Shown: in pieces, positions 6,907 through 27,270 of the stretch
Layout: each line of letters starts with the position of its first letter
Numbering within the stretch: position 1 is the stretch's first letter
Source of the DNA: Chitinivibrionales bacterium
Lineage (GTDB): Bacteria > Fibrobacterota > Chitinivibrionia > Chitinivibrionales > JANQEN01
Direction of reading: 5' to 3'
DNA: 64,000 nucleotides
NCBI GenBank assembly: GCA_028278335.1
Contig: JANQEN010000188.1
Location: 1-64,000, forward strand
Translations under genes and position numbers: made by a program
Notes under the pieces: model-generated
Databases searched by the model: none
What the model saw: only the letters and a program-made list of their open reading frames with translations
Told to the model about the DNA's origin: nothing

Positions 6907-9075
6907 GTGAATATTTGGTCGTTTATCTGCACAGTTAAAAATATAGTCGGCAATCGTTTCTGGCTATATCCGATACTATTCTCACTCCTTCATTTAAACT
7001 ACAGAGTCCATGCCAAGGAACGACCGAATATTGTCCTTATTATGGCTGATGATATGGGATTCTCTGATATAGGGTGCTATGGTGGGGAAATTGAAACCCC
7101 AAATCTAGACACCCTGGCAGCTCATGGGATTCGTTTTAGCCATTTTTATAATGGAGCACGCTGTTGTCCTAGCCGAGCCAGTCTTCTCACCGGTCTTTAT
7201 GGGCATCAAGCAGGTATCGGCGCGATGGATGCAGATGAAGTACATAAAAATGGCCCTGGTTATGCAGGATACCTAAACAGTCGATGTGTTACAATCGCCG
7301 AAGCGTTGAAATCCGCTGATTATTTTACCGCAGCTACTGGTAAATGGCATATAGGTGCAAAGAGAGCCCACTGGCCTCTCCAGAGAGGATTTGACCGATA
7401 TTTTGGTTCACCTGAAGGGGGTGGATTCTACTTTACTCCATCGCGCGACATATATCTGGACAACAATATAATCTACCCTAAGGGAACTCAAATGCCTTCA
7501 GAGTGGTATGGAACCTTTGGCTGGACTGAATACGGAATTAAGTTTATTGATGAGGCTCTTGCAAAGGAAAAACCCTTTTTCCTCTATATTGCCCACATTG
7601 CTCCTCATTTTCCTATTCAAGCGCCGAAAGAATATATAAATAAATACCTGAGAAAATACCGACAGGAATGGAACTCATTTCGGCTCAAACGTTATCAAAA
7701 GCAGAAAAACATTGGTTTGCTTGATGACTCATGGCCTTTACCCTCTCCTGTAGCTGGATTATCAGATTGGAATGCTCTAACTAATATACAAAAAGCTAGG
7801 CAGGATTCTGCTATGGCAGCTTATGCAGCAACGGTCGAATGTTTGGATAAAAGTATAGGGACCCTTGTACAGGAACTTAAAAGGCGAAATATCTTTGATA
7901 ATACCCTTATAATGTTTCTTTCTGATAATGGCGGGTGTGATGCTGGAGGAAACCTTATGAATAACTCAGAAAAAGGTCGAATCGGTACTGATCAGTCTTA
8001 TGTCAGATATGGTCGTAATTGGGCCAATGTATCCAACACACCTTTCCAATTTTATAAAAAGTACACCCATGAAGGCGGAATTGCTGCACCCCTTATTTTC
8101 CACTGGCCTGATGGGATAAAGCGTGGTAATGAATGGGAACATCAAGTAACCCATATAATTGATATTATGCCTACTTGCATTGAGGTATCTGGTGGTTCTT
8201 ATCCACGAGCATATCAGGGAAATTTGATCCAGCCTAGTGAAGGTATAAGTTTGGTACCAATTTTTAGTGGCGGTTCAATTGAACGAAAATCACCCCTTTT
8301 CTGGGAGCATTTAGGAAACCGGGCAATACGTGAGGGGAAATGGAAATTGGTAGCAAAAAAATCACAAACAAACTGGCAACTTTATGATATGGAAGCTGAC
8401 CGAACAGAGCTGAAAAATCTCGCCCAGTCCAATCCAACAAAGGTAAATTATCTCAAAGAAAAGTACAATGCCTGGGCAGAACGGGCCTTTGTTATAAAGA
8501 AAACTACCTACAATCTGCCGCCGACTCTTGAACTGGTCTATCCAAAGGGAGGTGAAATCCTTGTACCAAACAGTAACGTAGAAATCAAGTGGGGATTCAT
8601 GTGGACAGATATCAAGGATGTAAAAGTGGAATACTCTATTGATAATGGTCAATGGAGAAAAATTATAGAGCAAGCCAGTAACAGTTATATATGGAAAGTT
8701 CCTGATATAAATTCAAACCGTGTAAAGGTTCGGGTTACTGAAATCAATGGTAATCTGAAAGATATAAGTAATGAGTTTTTCTCGATTTCGCCAAATGTTG
8801 CCATTAAGGACTTAAAAAATGAGAGGAAAAATAGTACCTATACCCTCCTAGTTAAAGGGATATCCCCTATTGTCTTTAAAACTCATTTCAGTGCCCAGAG
8901 CTTAAGAATTTATAATGTAAAAGGAAGGATAGTGCACGAGTTAGCAATAAATTCTCCTACTATAAGCTGGGATGGAAACTTACATTGTGGAAAGAAATGT
9001 GGTGCTGGAACCTATTTTATAGAAATAAGAGGAAAAGAGCAGAGTTCTATAAAAGGAAGTATATTTATACCCTAA
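6907..9075 (+). CDS. Secreted sulfatase, Cys-type (C-x-P-S-R), with Ig-like and sorting domains
   Basis: A 722-residue arylsulfatase-like enzyme with an N-terminal hydrophobic signal segment (about residues 15-36). Metal-binding DD is at 48-49 (MADDMGFSD), the formylglycine precursor is C86 in CCPSRASLLTG, and SDNGGCDAGG provides a further metal ligand. After the catalytic domain (to about residue 510) come an Ig-like domain (VYPKGGEILVPNSNVEIKW) and a C-terminal sorting domain with GAGTYFIEIRG. The start is GTG, chosen because AAGGAG lies seven bases before it. It differs from its neighbour in the modified residue and in overall sequence, so the two probably act on different sulfate positions. 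It follows the first sulfatase after 137 bases. Confidence 0.9.
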   Translation: MNIWSFICTVKNIVGNRFWLYPILFSLLHLNYRVHAKERPNIVLIMADDMGFSDIGCYGGEIETPNLDTLAAHGIRFSHFYNGARCCPSRASLLTGLYGHQAGIGAMDADEVHKNGPGYAGYLNSRCVTIAEALKSADYFTAATGKWHIGAKRAHWPLQRGFDRYFGSPEGGGFYFTPSRDIYLDNNIIYPKGTQMPSEWYGTFGWTEYGIKFIDEALAKEKPFFLYIAHIAPHFPIQAPKEYINKYLRKYRQEWNSFRLKRYQKQKNIGLLDDSWPLPSPVAGLSDWNALTNIQKARQDSAMAAYAATVECLDKSIGTLVQELKRRNIFDNTLIMFLSDNGGCDAGGNLMNNSEKGRIGTDQSYVRYGRNWANVSNTPFQFYKKYTHEGGIAAPLIFHWPDGIKRGNEWEHQVTHIIDIMPTCIEVSGGSYPRAYQGNLIQPSEGISLVPIFSGGSIERKSPLFWEHLGNRAIREGKWKLVAKKSQTNWQLYDMEADRTELKNLAQSNPTKVNYLKEKYNAWAERAFVIKKTTYNLPPTLELVYPKGGEILVPNSNVEIKWGFMWTDIKDVKVEYSIDNGQWRKIIEQASNSYIWKVPDINSNRVKVRVTEINGNLKDISNEFFSISPNVAIKDLKNERKNSTYTLLVKGISPIVFKTHFSAQSLRIYNVKGRIVHELAINSPTISWDGNLHCGKKCGAGTYFIEIRGKEQSSIKGSIFIP

Positions 9076-9413: not shown

Positions 9414-9457
9414 GAGAATTCATCTTCCCTCTGAATCGAGACATTAGAAATTAAACA

Positions 9458-11041
9458 ATGCACTATTATAAATCTTTACAAAAACACATACACACATTTC
9501 TGCTATTTTTAATCTGTACATCCATTCTTATTATACCTATAAAAAGTGCATTCAATATTTATGATGAAGGTTTTGCATTAACAACAGCTTACAGAATTGG
9601 AGAAGGTGACACTCCCAATTTAGACATGTGGTCACCGTATCCCTCAACTCAATTTTATATATTAAATGTACTTTTTTCATATTTTAATCCATCAATATTC
9701 ACGGCGAGAGTGTACGACGCTTTTGTAAAACTTGTACTATTAGTATCAATATTTTTTGTTGTAAGAAACATCCTTCCTAAAAGGTATACTTACTTTGTAT
9801 TAGTTGCCGTCTCTCTTCTTATTGCATATTCAAAATTATATCTTTACCTTGTATTTCCTGCAGTTGCTTTTGGGATTTTAGGGATTTACTTTTACCATCA
9901 ATTCTGCGTTCAAAATGGAAAAAAATTCCTTTTGTATTCTGGTTTTTTTGTAGGGCTCTCTACTCTATTTCGATGGGATTTTGGGTGTTACTTCATTTTT
10001 ACAATTACGATCACACAATTAGCGGTTAGTATCAAGGAGTCTTTAAAATCAGGGCTTGGTTTACAAACCATAACGATACTCAGTCATATAAAACCCATTG
10101 CAGTATATTTTTGGTCAGCACTGCTTATGGCAAGTCTTCCTGTTTATATATTTTGGACTATTCAATCGGGGTTGTATCATGTTTTTGATCAATTGGTTAT
10201 TTTTCCATTAACGATATTAAAAAGCACCAGAACTCTGCCAGTCCCCAGCTTAATTCCAATAGACATAAAAGTTTTCGATTGGTTTTTCTTTTATACTCCC
10301 ATCACAATAGTAACAATTTTCATTGTTCGCACTATTAAAAACTTTTTCTTTAATAAACAGCTTATTCCCCAAACCTTCTCTTTATTGGTTATCACCTCCT
10401 GTTTTCTGCTTCATGCTGTAAGTCGATATGATATTGTGCATAGTATCCCCTTTATGATAGGTTCACTCATTGTTACCTGTATACTACTTTCTCAAAAAAA
10501 GATTAGAAAAATCACAAAAATTGGTGTATATGCCTACTTAATCATTTTTAGTTTTTTCTACTTTAGACCACAAGTTCGTTATCTAAAAGATTGTATTAAC
10601 TCGATTTCTCCTTTTTCCTCTCACTCCATGATTCTAAGAGCTGGTGGAGTCAAGTTGAATGAAAATCAAGAAAAAGCCATAAAATTTATACAAAAAAACA
10701 CTCAAAAAAATGAGAAAATATACGTTGGAAATACACACCATGATTTTGTTTTCATTAATGATATATCACTATATTTCTTAGCAGAACGATTGCCGGTAAC
10801 CGCTTATCACTGCCTTCATCCAGGGGTTGCTACTACTGTTGAAGTTCAAAACGAGATTATCTCTGGTATACAGAAACACAATACACCTTATTTAGTATTA
10901 GTAGATTTCCAAAAATCTATTGAACCAAATAATAGTTCCATTTCCAGTGGAGTTTTCAAGCTTGATACTTTCATTGAGAAGAATTATAGGAAATTCAAAA
11001 GTTTTGGTACTTACCAAGTCTGGAAAAGAAAACTCCTTTAA
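9458..11041 (+). CDS. Polytopic membrane protein, GT-C glycosyltransferase-like
   Basis: A 527-residue protein with about ten hydrophobic segments and a soluble C-terminal part of about 130 residues. The first membrane helix is followed by the loop NIYDEGFALTTAYRI with an acidic DE pair, the layout of GT-C enzymes (ArnT/PMT-like) that use lipid-linked sugars. I do not recognise a specific subfamily. It may glycosylate surface polymers or secreted proteins, but that is inferred only from topology. AT-rich compared with the housekeeping block. It lies between two copies of a dispersed repeat (9174-9413 and 11094-11180), so it may be part of a mobile segment. No clear ribosome binding site is visible before the ATG. 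Confidence 0.6.
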   Translation: MHYYKSLQKHIHTFLLFLICTSILIIPIKSAFNIYDEGFALTTAYRIGEGDTPNLDMWSPYPSTQFYILNVLFSYFNPSIFTARVYDAFVKLVLLVSIFFVVRNILPKRYTYFVLVAVSLLIAYSKLYLYLVFPAVAFGILGIYFYHQFCVQNGKKFLLYSGFFVGLSTLFRWDFGCYFIFTITITQLAVSIKESLKSGLGLQTITILSHIKPIAVYFWSALLMASLPVYIFWTIQSGLYHVFDQLVIFPLTILKSTRTLPVPSLIPIDIKVFDWFFFYTPITIVTIFIVRTIKNFFFNKQLIPQTFSLLVITSCFLLHAVSRYDIVHSIPFMIGSLIVTCILLSQKKIRKITKIGVYAYLIIFSFFYFRPQVRYLKDCINSISPFSSHSMILRAGGVKLNENQEKAIKFIQKNTQKNEKIYVGNTHHDFVFINDISLYFLAERLPVTAYHCLHPGVATTVEVQNEIISGIQKHNTPYLVLVDFQKSIEPNNSSISSGVFKLDTFIEKNYRKFKSFGTYQVWKRKLL

Positions 11042-11093
11042 TTCTACCTACCATTGTAAACTCTCAAATAGTAATTTACTTAGCTGATGGATG

Positions 11094-11180
11094 GCACTGT
11101 TCCCCTGAGCTGTGTGTAACTTAATTTTTATAGACTTTTCAGTTACGACAGAAGCCAGCAATGAAGAGCGGGGCTGGACT
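11094..11180. repeat. 87-bp copy of the dispersed element, lacking the foldback interior
   Basis: Shares both ends with 9174-9413 (GCACTGTTCCC at 11094 and the exact 19-mer at 11162-11180) and an internal GACTTT(T)CAG. It looks like a version of the 240-bp element with the inverted-repeat interior deleted. Confidence 0.6.
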
Positions 11181-11183
11181 TAT

Positions 11184-11238
11184 ACTGTTTCTCAAAAGTT
11201 TTGTCCCATGGTTTTGACAAAACTCTTATAGAAACAGT
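11184..11238. other. Long hairpin between the dispersed repeat and the DUF4332 gene
   Basis: Two nested perfect 9-bp stems: ACTGTTTCT (11184-11192) pairs with AGAAACAGT (11230-11238), and AGTTTTGTC pairs with GACAAAACT inside it, around a 10-base loop. No T-run follows on the plus strand. It may be part of the repeat, a transposon end or an RNA structure. Confidence 0.6.
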
Positions 11239-11322
11239 TATGCCGCAACAAAACATAGGACATAATTATTGAGAAGCGGTATAAGTCAACTGGATGTGTT
11301 CTGCCAAAGAAAAAGAGGAACT

Positions 11323-11997
11323 ATGAAGTCACACTACCATATAGATGCAGAGAAAGTTAGCTTGACAAGCTTTCATGCGAGTTTAAAATCGCGTGACTTA
11401 GTACCAAGTAGGGCTGTGCTGAAAGAGAATTGTACAAAGAGATTCAAAATCATAGCTCTTGCAGGTGTGAACTCTCTAAGTGATCTGATTGATAATTTGA
11501 AGACAAAAAAGAAGATTGAGGAGTTCTCGAACAGAACGGGATTGAATATTGAATACTTGACTCTTCTGAAAAGAGAAGCGAGTAGTTTGTTTCCCAATCC
11601 CATACAGCTGAAAAGTTTCCCCAGTGTGCGACCACAGACCCTTCAGAAACTAGAAACAGGTGGTATCAAAAACTCAAAGCAACTATTTGACAAGGTCCAA
11701 TTTGGAGGTGCGCTAGAAGAGATTTGTTCGAAAACTGGACTCAAACAATCCGAACTTGAAGAGCTATACCAACTGTCTGATCTTTCTAGACTTTACGGGG
11801 TAGGGCCGGTTTTTGCACGTATTCTGTATGACATTGGAATCCGTTCAGTAAAAATGTTCCTTGAACATGGGGCTGATGAGATTGTCAGAATCTACGAAAT
11901 TAAAAAAGGTATTAAGGCGGATTTCTCTGCGAGAGATATACAGTTTGCCCTCGAATTAGCGAGAGAATTAGAACTGAAAATAGAAACTCGAGCATAA
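11323..11997 (+). CDS. DUF4332 (helix-hairpin-helix-like) protein
   Basis: Encodes about 224 residues. Tandem helical units recur, the clearest being SRLYGVGPVFARILYDIGI (about residues 160-180), the pattern of DUF4332, which resembles the helix-hairpin-helix folds that bind DNA. The start is the ATG at 11323 with AGAGGA upstream; the longer frame from 11269 lacks a site. Soluble, no signal peptide. Function unknown; DNA binding is only suggested by the fold. It stands alone between repeat-rich gaps. Confidence 0.65.
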   Translation: MKSHYHIDAEKVSLTSFHASLKSRDLVPSRAVLKENCTKRFKIIALAGVNSLSDLIDNLKTKKKIEEFSNRTGLNIEYLTLLKREASSLFPNPIQLKSFPSVRPQTLQKLETGGIKNSKQLFDKVQFGGALEEICSKTGLKQSELEELYQLSDLSRLYGVGPVFARILYDIGIRSVKMFLEHGADEIVRIYEIKKGIKADFSARDIQFALELARELELKIETRA

Positions 11998-12397
11998 CAA
12001 ATCATTGTACCATGACGTCTTCAGCGCGAGTGAATGTGGTTGTTGTCAGTATTAACTTACACTTTTACATTAAAAAGGATTATAAAATCATTTATTAATA
12101 TCCTCATTCATTCATAATTCTTTTACATTGGGTAATGATAATTATATGGGTACAGAAGGAGCAAACATCTTTCCCTCTAAATCAACATCGATACAAATGA
12201 TCAAAGGGCGAATTAATTTGAATTTGACATATAGTGTTTGTTCACCCGGGCCGGAAGAGCGAGTCTGACTATCAGCTTAACTTATACGTATTGTAATTAA
12301 AAAATGAAAGGAAATTTATTTCTAATTTTTTCCTACTCTCGCATTTTCTCAAAAATTGGATTTTAATTTCTATGATGCTGTCTAAACTGAGGTAGTT
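11998..12397. other. Intergenic gap with a possible degenerate repeat copy
   Basis: About 400 AT-rich bases between convergent genes. At 12252-12270, CGGAAGAGCGAGTCTGACT partly resembles the 19-mer that ends the dispersed repeats. No credible gene or clear terminator was seen. Confidence 0.4.
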
Positions 12398-15300
12398 CTA
12401 ATAATTGAGCATTGGCACCTTTTCAGGATCTGTATTTGCGTGTAACCTCTCTACCTGTAAACTGAACGCTTCAATTTTTGCTTCGAGTACCTGTGGAAAT
12501 GGATTGCCGTCAGTTTCAATAGAAAGGAAAGGTAAATCTGAAACGTGAAGTGATTTGAAGAGAGAATGATCATTTTTACCGTTATTCACGTTCATTTTTA
12601 CCCGCTGCATCGTGTCGTTATTGGCTTCGGCCGATAGAATTGACTCAATCACCCGAGTAGGCATACAGGCAAAGGGCCCGATAGAAATGACCCCGTGCAC
12701 ACTATGGAGCATTTCCCGAAAGAAATTGCCAAGAACAAGTATAGACTCACCACGAAAATGAATATCAAAAAAATTCTGTCCATGGTCGAGAATATCCGGA
12801 ATATCAATGAGCTCGTATTTAAACAAACCCGACTGTGCAAGCAATCTCTTTATTTTGTGTTCATATTTAGCCTGAAGGTACTGTTTAAATTGAAACTGAA
12901 TTCTTTCTCCTAAAGTAAAATTCGCTTCATATATCCCCTTTTTCACCATATGATCCGTATATTTAAAGTACTCAAAAAAGTGGGACTTCTTTACAATAAT
13001 ATTTCGTTGAGCAAGCCTTGCAATAAGGTCCTGGACTGAAAAATAATCCCGTCGAACGAAGATTTCTCCGGTAAGAGAAACTACCTTTGCCTTTTCCAGA
13101 GGATACCGCAATTCGATTTGTGATAATCTGTCTGCAACTGATATTAAAGTAGGATACAGTTCATACACCTTTCCCTGTCTGAAGATATTGGTAATTCTCT
13201 CAAGCTCTGTTTCAAATTTCTCATGGGCTTCCCTTTTATCAACGGCCAATACGGAGAGAGCGTTTTTGATGTCCTCCATAACATCTGCTGTAATAAACGA
13301 TTTAAGCAGGGTTAATCGGTTTTTACTGGAAAATGCCTTTGGCATATATCCCTTTTCAGCGTTAAGGCTGAAAATAGCAGTATTTTTTAACCGTTTTTTT
13401 GCAATAGTGTTTTTAAAGAACACACTATATTGAGGAAAACGACAATTCCCTGGTGTAAAGGGCATAAAAAAAGCAAGCATTTCGTCGGGATCTTTTCTGT
13501 CTTCAATATACTTAAGCAAGCCTCCAATGGTAAGTTGCAGAGGCAGACATTCTTTGCAGAGCGTATTAGCACGCCCCAGCTTTAATGCACGATAGTCGTA
13601 TACCGGAACAGAAGAAGAGCGAACACCAAAACCTTCCAGTGAGGCCGCTAGCATCTCACTGCTGATCTTACCCACTGATGGAAAAACAAGATGAACCTTT
13701 TTATCAAAGAAACTGTATTCTATGTTATCTGAAGACAGAAAATAGGGTACTTTCTTTTTAATGACAACCTTTGCTGGTGTAAAGGACGCCTCATTTTTAT
13801 CACACTTCCCAATTTCCCTGTAACGCTTTATGATGTCAATAAATGCCTCAATACGTGTGTTGACTCCAGCATCAGCAGTGTGACTGTCAAGTTCGAGGGT
13901 AAGAGAAGGTTTCGATTTCATTATATCCCTGAAATAACTAAGTAGAAAGGAGTCCGGCCCACAACTAAAATTTGTAACCCAGACACCATATAATTGTGGA
14001 TGCAGCTTGACATAAGCCGCCGCTTTCATCAGATCCTGTCCGATGGCCCAACACATATCCTTATCACAATACTCATTTTCAAAGGGAAGAAAATCGTAGG
14101 GAATCGTTATTAATCCGCGAGAGGTAAATTTTGCTGGTATACCCATATTAGCATCCTTCGAGAACGCATTATATGATCTTCCGAAAAGTACAACCGCAAA
14201 AGAATTTGGATTTGATTCAATTTCACGAATTATTGCTTTTCCACTTTCTTTGCATTTACCAATAAAAGTCTGCTGGTTCTTAACCGCATGCCCGTAAGCG
14301 ATAAGCGCTTTTCTTTTCTTAATCCCAAAGTGCTCTGCCATGTTTGCAAAGTCACTCTTACAGGCGTTATACCCTTTTGAAAAATCCAATAACGGTGAGA
14401 TTATTTCCGGCTGGTCTGGAATGTCCTTAAATGCTGCTTTTATATAGTACGATTCACTCTGTAAAAGTACACACGTGCTTTGATGCTGCTTGAGTTCACT
14501 GATGCTGTTAGTAGCTCGTAACCCCATTATTTTCGGGATAAAGATATAATCAAGGTTTTTGCTTAAAAGGTTTGCATAGCAGCCGTGGGCAATTTCACCG
14601 GGGTAACAGAAGGAAGAACGCTTTTTATTGATTCCTTCCTGCGAAACACCATCTGAAAGCACCACTTCCATACCTAGCTCTGTAAAAAAGGTATGGTATA
14701 AAGGATAAAAGGTATTTGTCAAATAGGAACGGCTGATCCCAATTTTCTTTCTCTTTCCATCAGAAACATCTCCAGCCTCCCTGTTATAAACCCATGATTG
14801 CCGCCGGTCAACAAGATCCAGCTTGATTGAATCAAATTGTAAGTGATGGGTAATATTGTAATATTTATTGCATACGCCACCAAAGGTATATTTTTTATTG
14901 TTTATAATAGCTACATTAATTTCACACTTCCTGTCACATTTTTCTTTCACACCCCGGCATTCAAATTTTTTACCGTAGGTTATTTCTCTTTCAGCCAGCG
15001 TTCTCAGGTTAAATGTACCTTTCTCAAGCAGGCGATTATGTATCCTCTCCTTTGTTTCCAGTGCTACACCAAATGCTCCGATTAGCCCTGGATCCGGTGG
15101 TACAATTATCTCTTTTTCAATTAAATGTGCCATCGCTATTGGAACAGCTTTATTATAGCATACACCACCCTGCATAAATATCTTCTTACCTACCGGCCGA
15201 ATACCCTTAACACGATTGGTGTAGTTCATACAAATAGAGTATACTAATCCAGCCACAATCTCTGTTTTACTTATACCTTCATGAATTGCAGTTTTAATAT

Positions 15301-26135: not shown

Positions 26136-27131
26136 TTAATTTTTAATCAAAACTTTTTTAATAAATGTCACATTATCATTATCAATTTTCAACAGAGTGA
26201 TTCCAAATGAATATGAATTGTCAATGTGACACCATCTTTTTCCTGTAACATTATCCACTTTCTTAAGCATTTTTCCCCGTGCATCAAGTAAGCTAATTGA
26301 GTACAGTTTATTTTCTGGTAAATAAACCATTACTGATTTGTTAGAATTTTTAATATCAATATTTTTGCTTAGTCTTTGCACCTTGTCTTTCAATGATGAC
26401 GATCCATCAATAGCAGATACACAGCCCTGTACTATCTCTTTGTCTGATTTCTGAATAAAGGAATTCATTTTGCAATTACTCTTGTTCCAACCTGATTTTA
26501 AAGTAAAATTCCACTCCTTTGTTATTTTCTGGCCTGCTGCAATGGTAACTTCTTCACCTTTACCACCGGCAAGCATGTCACGCATGGTCCAGGTATCCCT
26601 GCCATTCACCGATAACTTTTCTGCAATGGCAACATGGAGCGTGGCCGTAATGTTACTGCCAGAAGTGTTCTCAATCGTAACCTTGGCTGTGCCGCTGGAT
26701 TGAGGACACCGCGAATCTATAATGATTTTTGCCGGGCTCGGCTTGCTCTGATGATTCGTATAGGTATTTTTTAGCTCATCATATTTGGGATAGTTATTTG
26801 AAATTTTCGTGCCTTCAAAAAAGAATCTCGGTTTGCCATAATCCCTATAATACTGATCGGTTCTCGCCCGGTGGACCTGGGTTGTCAATGAATTTGCCTG
26901 TTGATAGGTAATAAGGCAAAGGTCGTTACCCTCCTCCTCCTTCAGTTTAAAGAGTGCCGCCGCCGGCGGGTTACAGCTTGATCAGGTAATGCTGTCAAAA
27001 TGTTCAATCACCACCACCCGTTTTGATTTATGCTGCTCTTTAGCAGCAAAGGCCGTACCTACGTCTCCTGCTGCTATAGAGACGATAAATTGTGAAAGAA
27101 AAATTATATTACAGAATTTCTTGATATCCAC
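26136..27131 (-). CDS. Candidate selenoprotein: secreted thioredoxin-fold (Omp28-like) protein with U-x-x-C active site
   Basis: The frame from GTG 27131 (GGGAGG upstream) to 26136 is 331 residues with a single TGA at 26984-26982, codon 50. Before it are a signal peptide (to about AFAA) and the strand RVVVIEHF; at it is SIT-TGA-SSCNPP, the exact place of the first Cys of a thioredoxin-like C-x-x-C-P motif, giving U50-S-S-C53. After it the fold continues to YYRDYGKPRFFFEG, the cis-Pro/FF-G segment of secreted thioredoxin-like proteins. Then come an Ig-like region and a sorting domain. A 13-base GC-rich hairpin starts 12 bases after the TGA, matching bacterial SECIS spacing. A nonsense mutation or sequencing error from TGT/TGC is the alternative. 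Lies between the protease and the GH9-like gene, same strand. Confidence 0.6.
26957..26969 (-). promoter_or_regulatory. Candidate bacterial SECIS hairpin
   Basis: On the minus strand CCGCC-GGC-GGCGG folds as a 5-bp stem with a 3-base loop starting with G; an alternative fold pairs GCUG with CGGC outside CCG/CGG, leaving a bulged UAAC and a CCGG loop. Either way the apical loop begins about 15-17 bases after the UGA, the usual bSECIS distance with a G in the first loop positions. Confidence 0.5.
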
Positions 27132-27270
27132 GAAATTGCCCTCCCTATTGTTTATTAAAATCAATATCTTAAAAAATTGCTTTATTGTGTAAAGTTAATT
27201 TAGCGTTGTTTCTTAAACCCCGCCCACCCTGTGAGCTTCGGGGGAACAGGATGAGCGAGGCAAGAAACGT

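Follow-up and report, generated by a model that had tools for sequence, protein, structure and literature searches.

We are highly confident that a gene in the window (the whole stretch of 64,000 nucleotides of DNA that was analysed) encodes a selenoprotein in which UGA 50 specifies selenocysteine (Sec), and that its product is most likely a surface thiol/selenol-disulfide oxidoreductase exported by the type IX secretion system (T9SS). The sequence itself provides a single frame, a conserved TGA, homologues with Cys at the same codon, the Sec machinery, a hairpin and a T9SS translocon gene; Sec insertion very probably follows, and export and redox activity of the protein are predicted. In the mechanism that we propose, SelB and tRNA-Sec(UCA) would decode UGA 50 as selenocysteine. 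The product would have a signal peptide, and it would contain a UxxC active site in a thioredoxin fold, a beta domain of the Omp28 type and a tail for type IX sorting. It would most likely cross the outer membrane and serve as a thiol/selenol-disulfide oxidoreductase on the cell surface or beyond it, close to secreted polysaccharide-degrading enzymes.

Translation gives a single reading frame of 331 residues plus stop with one internal TGA (Table 1), and the first-pass annotation, which had described one in-frame TGA in an otherwise continuous 331-codon gene, was correct in both coordinates and length. It had also placed the TGA at the first Cys of a C-x-x-C-P site. The TGA is indeed at the first Cys position, but the local context is FDSIT-U-SSC-NPP, i.e., UxxC-N-P-P, with the proline one residue later than supposed.

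Table 1. Features of the candidate selenoprotein gene, in window positions.
Feature	Position	Strand	Basis or remarks
Coding sequence	26136..27131	(-)	331 residues, GTG start, TAA stop; eight paralogues align full length
Start codon GTG	27131	(-)	Sequence
Ribosome-binding site GGGAGGG	27139..27145	(-)	Sequence, 5' of GTG start
Predicted signal peptide, residues 1-29, end AFA-A	27045..27131	(-)	By eye: hydrophobic stretch, then small residues
TGA, candidate selenocysteine 50 (U50), first residue of UxxC	26982..26984	(-)	Translation; paralogue and Cys-homologue alignments
TGT, Cys53, second residue of UxxC, invariant in family	26973..26975	(-)	Paralogue alignment
bSECIS-like hairpin CCGCC-GGC-GGCGG	26957..26969	(-)	Stem of 5 bp, GGC loop, UGA-to-loop spacing 17 nt
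Thioredoxin-like domain	26742..27020	(-)	Strand 40-45, UxxC 50-53, helix 54-70, strand 72-77; AlphaFold2 (low confidence near motif) and fold match
Pfam Omp28 match, residues 95-236	26424..26849	(-)	Pfam profile match
Putative type IX secretion C-terminal sorting tail, residues 265-330	26142..26339	(-)	Sub-threshold here; over NCBIfam cut-off in four paralogues

A protein search of the phylum recovered eight full-length copies of the gene, the window gene included, all of them in the source genome. Every copy has exactly one internal stop, which is always TGA, always in the same alignment column and always part of UxxC; neither this column nor the Cys three residues further along varies among the eight. 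Relative to the window protein, the seven other copies have 26-57% identity in the N-terminal domain and 22-45% along the full length. Judged from these alignments, eight paralogues with TGA at one codon are what chance cannot give. Sorting tails dominated the hits when full-length profiles were run against the phylum, so an alignment stripped of them was used. Profile searches identified two proteins from other genera of the same order that have Cys at the TGA column, L094 (genome G003; CGGC) and L076 (genome G027; CNYC), and no selB over the cut-off was found in either genome. Homologues had been named at the outset as a check on this codon; it is Sec in the seven paralogues and Cys in these two proteins, and none has an unrelated residue. 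A recoded Omp28-like gene in a genome of the same family (G034) retains both the UxxC and the hairpin. Synonymous-codon conservation after the TGA, compared between the window gene and C190a, was not significant (p = 0.27).

The assignment to Omp28-like proteins made by the first-pass annotation is borne out by a match to Pfam Omp28 (PF11551) of 37.7 bits, over the gathering cut-off of 34.9, and it is this match that the protein shares with the Omp28 family. Compared with the Omp28 lipoprotein model NF033782, the window protein reaches 33.7 of 150 bits, has Sec for Cys and carries a putative sorting tail. An AlphaFold2 model (mean pLDDT 70, worst around the motif) consists of a strand-UxxC-helix unit followed by beta domains, and among solved structures it comes closest to HBP35 of Porphyromonas gingivalis (PDB 5Y1A), with E = 4.6e-12 along its entire length but a TM-score of only 0.50 for a model of pLDDT 70. 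HBP35 is a type IX-secreted surface thioredoxin that has, as predicted for the window protein, a signal peptide, a thioredoxin domain with a redox motif, a beta domain and a T9SS C-terminal domain. Its thioredoxin activity needs the active-site Cys pair, and its C-terminal region is required for the surface form (PMC2907840). HBP35 binds hemin and has Cys (CxxC) where the window protein has UxxC. We conclude that the window protein acts in the manner of HBP35, Sec taking the attacking role, and that it would be exported and redox active.

A different location of the product has to be considered, namely a selenoprotein that stays in the periplasm or is held by a lipid anchor rather than being exported by the T9SS. 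The sorting tail noted in the first-pass annotation scores 14 bits in the window protein, which is below the Pfam cut-off and the NCBIfam cut-off (23 bits), and Omp28 proteins elsewhere are lipoproteins (NF033782). However, of the seven other paralogues four (L025, L027, L028 and L032) have a tail that passes the NCBIfam threshold, a T9SS translocon gene of the SprA family is present over its cut-off on contig C155, and no lipobox was seen by eye at the end of the signal peptide of the window protein. We consider a periplasmic or lipid-anchored protein unlikely and favour type IX export to the surface. The gene was said to lie in a glycan-degradation region, and its same-strand neighbours are a sulfatase, a GH16 gene, a CelD_N/F5-F8 cellulase-type protein with a sorting tail, and a subtilase.

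Genes for Sec synthesis and insertion, which had likewise been named as a check, are all present in the source assembly (6.33 Mb in 301 contigs, 90% complete and 1% contaminated), with two each of selA, selB, selC and selD. The two selA match with E values of 9e-149 and 1e-129; both tRNA-Sec exceed the Rfam cut-off and are called tRNA-Sec with UCA by ARAGORN; and each selD has its own TGA at the usual Sec loop. Each tRNA-Sec adjoins a selA-selB pair, one on contig C6 and the other on contig C244. A selB over the cut-off occurs in 14 of the 168 phylum genomes, and two copies occur only in the source genome. In an 11-sequence tree, the C6 copy clusters with copies from the order and the C244 copy forms a long separate branch, which suggests that the second set (C244) was acquired. 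Locus L066 of C244 contains a TGA at 8050, the tRNA-Sec at 9444-9542, and selB and selA at 9720-13051; the Omp28-like gene directly next to this set has a TGA but no Cys at +3 (ATR-U-GNVS).

It is conceivable that UGA is decoded as cysteine, or as some other amino acid, by a tRNA with a UCA anticodon, which would give a CxxC protein with no selenium. A tRNA-Cys with a UCA anticodon occurs in some bacteria, and the homologues have Cys at this codon. However, no UCA tRNA besides the two tRNA-Sec was found among the contigs scanned for tRNAs, and decoding as Cys would not explain why the Sec machinery is complete and duplicated or why hairpins follow the TGAs, making this reading very improbable.

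Decoding of UGA 50 as Sec would be guided by the hairpin just downstream. This hairpin starts 12 bases past the TGA, exactly as first reported for an AT-rich gene, and is 100% GC in a gene of 39% GC. The bases after the TGA were compared with the bSECIS limits given in a review of prokaryotic selenoproteins (PMC13188914), which are a loop of 3-9 nt, a stem of 4-16 bp, a G among the first two loop nucleotides, a UGA-to-loop distance of 16-37 nt, and at most -7.5 kcal/mol. The window hairpin is within all of them (5 bp stem, 3-nt loop starting GG, 17 nt, -7.7 kcal/mol), and four of the eight paralogues are without a hairpin that clearly fits the model; some selenoprotein genes do not clearly fit it either (PMC13188914). 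The window hairpin is unusual against synonymous-codon shuffles (p ~0.005, with 1% of shuffles passing the bSECIS model) and not unusual against dinucleotide shuffles (z = +0.64), and another stretch of the window gene scores equally extreme in the hairpin test; because of these last two results, the hairpin alone is not decisive. Across the candidate Sec sites, 24 of 31 have a hairpin with a GG/GT loop (Fisher p = 3.6e-17 versus synonymous shuffles, related genes being counted separately and not independent). Random windows of ordinary genes, used as a control, gave a mean p of 0.50 with 2% at <=0.02, and no hairpin excess was found in the two Cys homologues and one other Cys thioredoxin (p 0.26-0.65).

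Genome-wide reassignment of UGA would account for an in-frame TGA in many genes, but it is contradicted by the stop counts, and UGA is otherwise a true stop in this genome. Of 490 long frames in 1.2 Mb, 73 close with TGA, the median gap to the next in-frame stop is 10 codons whether a frame ends in TGA, TAA or TAG, and internal TGAs are absent from the vast majority of long frames. Among internal stops, counted as stops between two coding stretches, a Cys lies within four residues at 16 of 39 TGAs, compared with 1 of 23 TAGs and 11 of 72 TAAs. Reassignment is hardly credible on these figures. A pseudogene or a sequencing error, with the stop being real, could explain a lone gene with one stop, but has next to no chance here and is already contradicted: the same TGA is present at eight independent loci on six contigs, which rules out sequencing error, ~280 further codons are open with conservation on both sides of the TGA, and the Sec/Cys pair signature of TGA paralogues and Cys homologues removes both readings.

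The first-pass annotation regarded secreted Omp28-like proteins with Sec in the redox site, within a glycan-degradation region, as unusual; Omp28-related selenoproteins are already known, and the window gene is one of many candidates in its own genome. The GOS_C hypothetical protein, with 74 Sec sequences (PMC2398784), is NF045500 'Omp28-related selenoprotein' in NCBIfam and is included in Table 1 of the review (PMC13188914). Both it and the window family are Omp28-like, with a Trx-like fold, one Sec in UxxC and a bSECIS-like hairpin past the UGA, whereas the window family has eight copies in one genome and a putative type IX sorting tail. Against NF045500 (cut-off 200 bits), the window protein gives no hit, the paralogues score 18-39 bits, and no phylum genome exceeds the cut-off in a profile search. 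Because its scores are so far under the cut-off, the family is, by profile comparison, a distinct branch of Omp28-related selenoproteins. There is also a likeness to Sec-containing thioredoxins (PMC13188914), in which UxxC similarly begins the thioredoxin helix, but the window protein is a predicted surface cargo with extra domains and not a small stand-alone thioredoxin. A literature search returned no paper that links Omp28, or in any substantive way type IX secretion, with selenoproteins.

Targeted searches and a de novo survey of 1.2 Mb (~19% of the assembly) yielded ~39 candidate selenoprotein genes in the source genome, mostly with predicted export and sorting tails; the total is probably higher, because only that fraction was surveyed de novo. 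They comprise 12 Omp28-like genes (the eight paralogues, C119:85132 with WUGPC, C244:30049 beside the second tRNA-Sec, C161:25k and C20:5k), two thioredoxin/AhpC-TSA genes with WUGPC, two deiodinase-like genes with UPPF, two FG-GAP-repeat genes with UC, two CxU proteins, the two selD with a TGA each, one 2-hydroxyglutaryl-CoA dehydratase D (HGD-D) gene with TGA at an apparent Cys position, and 16 of the 17 copies of a CBM96/disaggregatase-repeat-like family, which have one or two TGAs. Judged by their sequences, these additional genes are candidates of uneven strength: the case for the secreted CBM96-like family is strong, given its recoding in six genomes (the source genome, G034, G001, G021, G022 and G023), and that for the single HGD-D gene is weak. 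When CBM96-like members are aligned, Sec falls in one short block just 5' of an ARxxxKFDLS motif, and an upstream GYxGC cysteine is nearly constant; the loci include L198, L206, L212, L215, L218, L141:12850-13755 (+), L164:7773-8786 (+) and others. A 2026 selenoprotein catalogue lists 119 families, and CBM96, FG-GAP and HGD-D selenoproteins are absent from its table (PMC13188914).

Several of the candidates have features of their own. The FG-GAP-repeat genes, L069:9879-11123 (-) and L068:17410-18615 (-), have their TGA in a UC motif at the same place, share a CCTCA-GGT-TGAGG hairpin, and lie on contigs C2 and C190, close to Omp28-like genes that are themselves recoded. Two Omp28-like genes, L123 (G000:C161 ~25000) and L124 (G000:C20 ~5200), each contain three in-frame TGAs, two in a UxxU motif and a third ~32 residues on, and in both a perfect TATCTGA-AGTT-TCAGATA hairpin lies past the third. 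On contig C119, three adjacent genes for exported thioredoxin-like proteins (L178:3011-6109, (-)) all have TGA at the first Cys (WUGPC), and contig C148 encodes two exported iodothyronine-deiodinase-like proteins with a UPPF motif (L164:5-850 (+) and L164:2532-3689 (-)). The CxU proteins are adjacent, homologous secreted proteins with CTU and CHU (L068:11532-12380 (-), and a TGA at L068:10839 (-)), and in the one scanned the sorting tail is the only known domain. In the HGD-D gene (G000:C13:20038, spanning L196/L197), the TGA lies in SGTUPY. Four other sites (C92:68766, C130:28962, C23:14836 and C285:6198), each of which looks like an ordinary stop followed by a neighbouring in-frame gene, were rejected as selenoprotein candidates after inspection, as were C92:170530 and L091.

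Finally, we consider what so many candidates may mean for the organism. Selenocysteine is costly and easily oxidised, and most bacterial selenoproteins known so far are enzymes that serve anaerobic metabolism and thiol redox. The largest selenoproteomes reported have 57 and 63 genes. We think it probable that the source genome has a large surface selenoproteome, in which dozens of proteins exported by the type IX system depend on two separate Sec machineries. Among them would be a new family of CBM96/disaggregatase-repeat-like proteins with Sec in a non-thioredoxin beta domain, FG-GAP-repeat proteins with UC, and Omp28-like proteins that each carry three Sec; in number they would equal or surpass these records. 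The genome would also provide a natural example of two coexisting Sec insertion systems. The families outside the 2026 catalogue suggest that secreted selenoproteins are under-counted, because annotation ends at UGA. Sec in many exported surface proteins, several of them outside the thioredoxin fold, raises the question of what purpose an extracellular selenol may serve.
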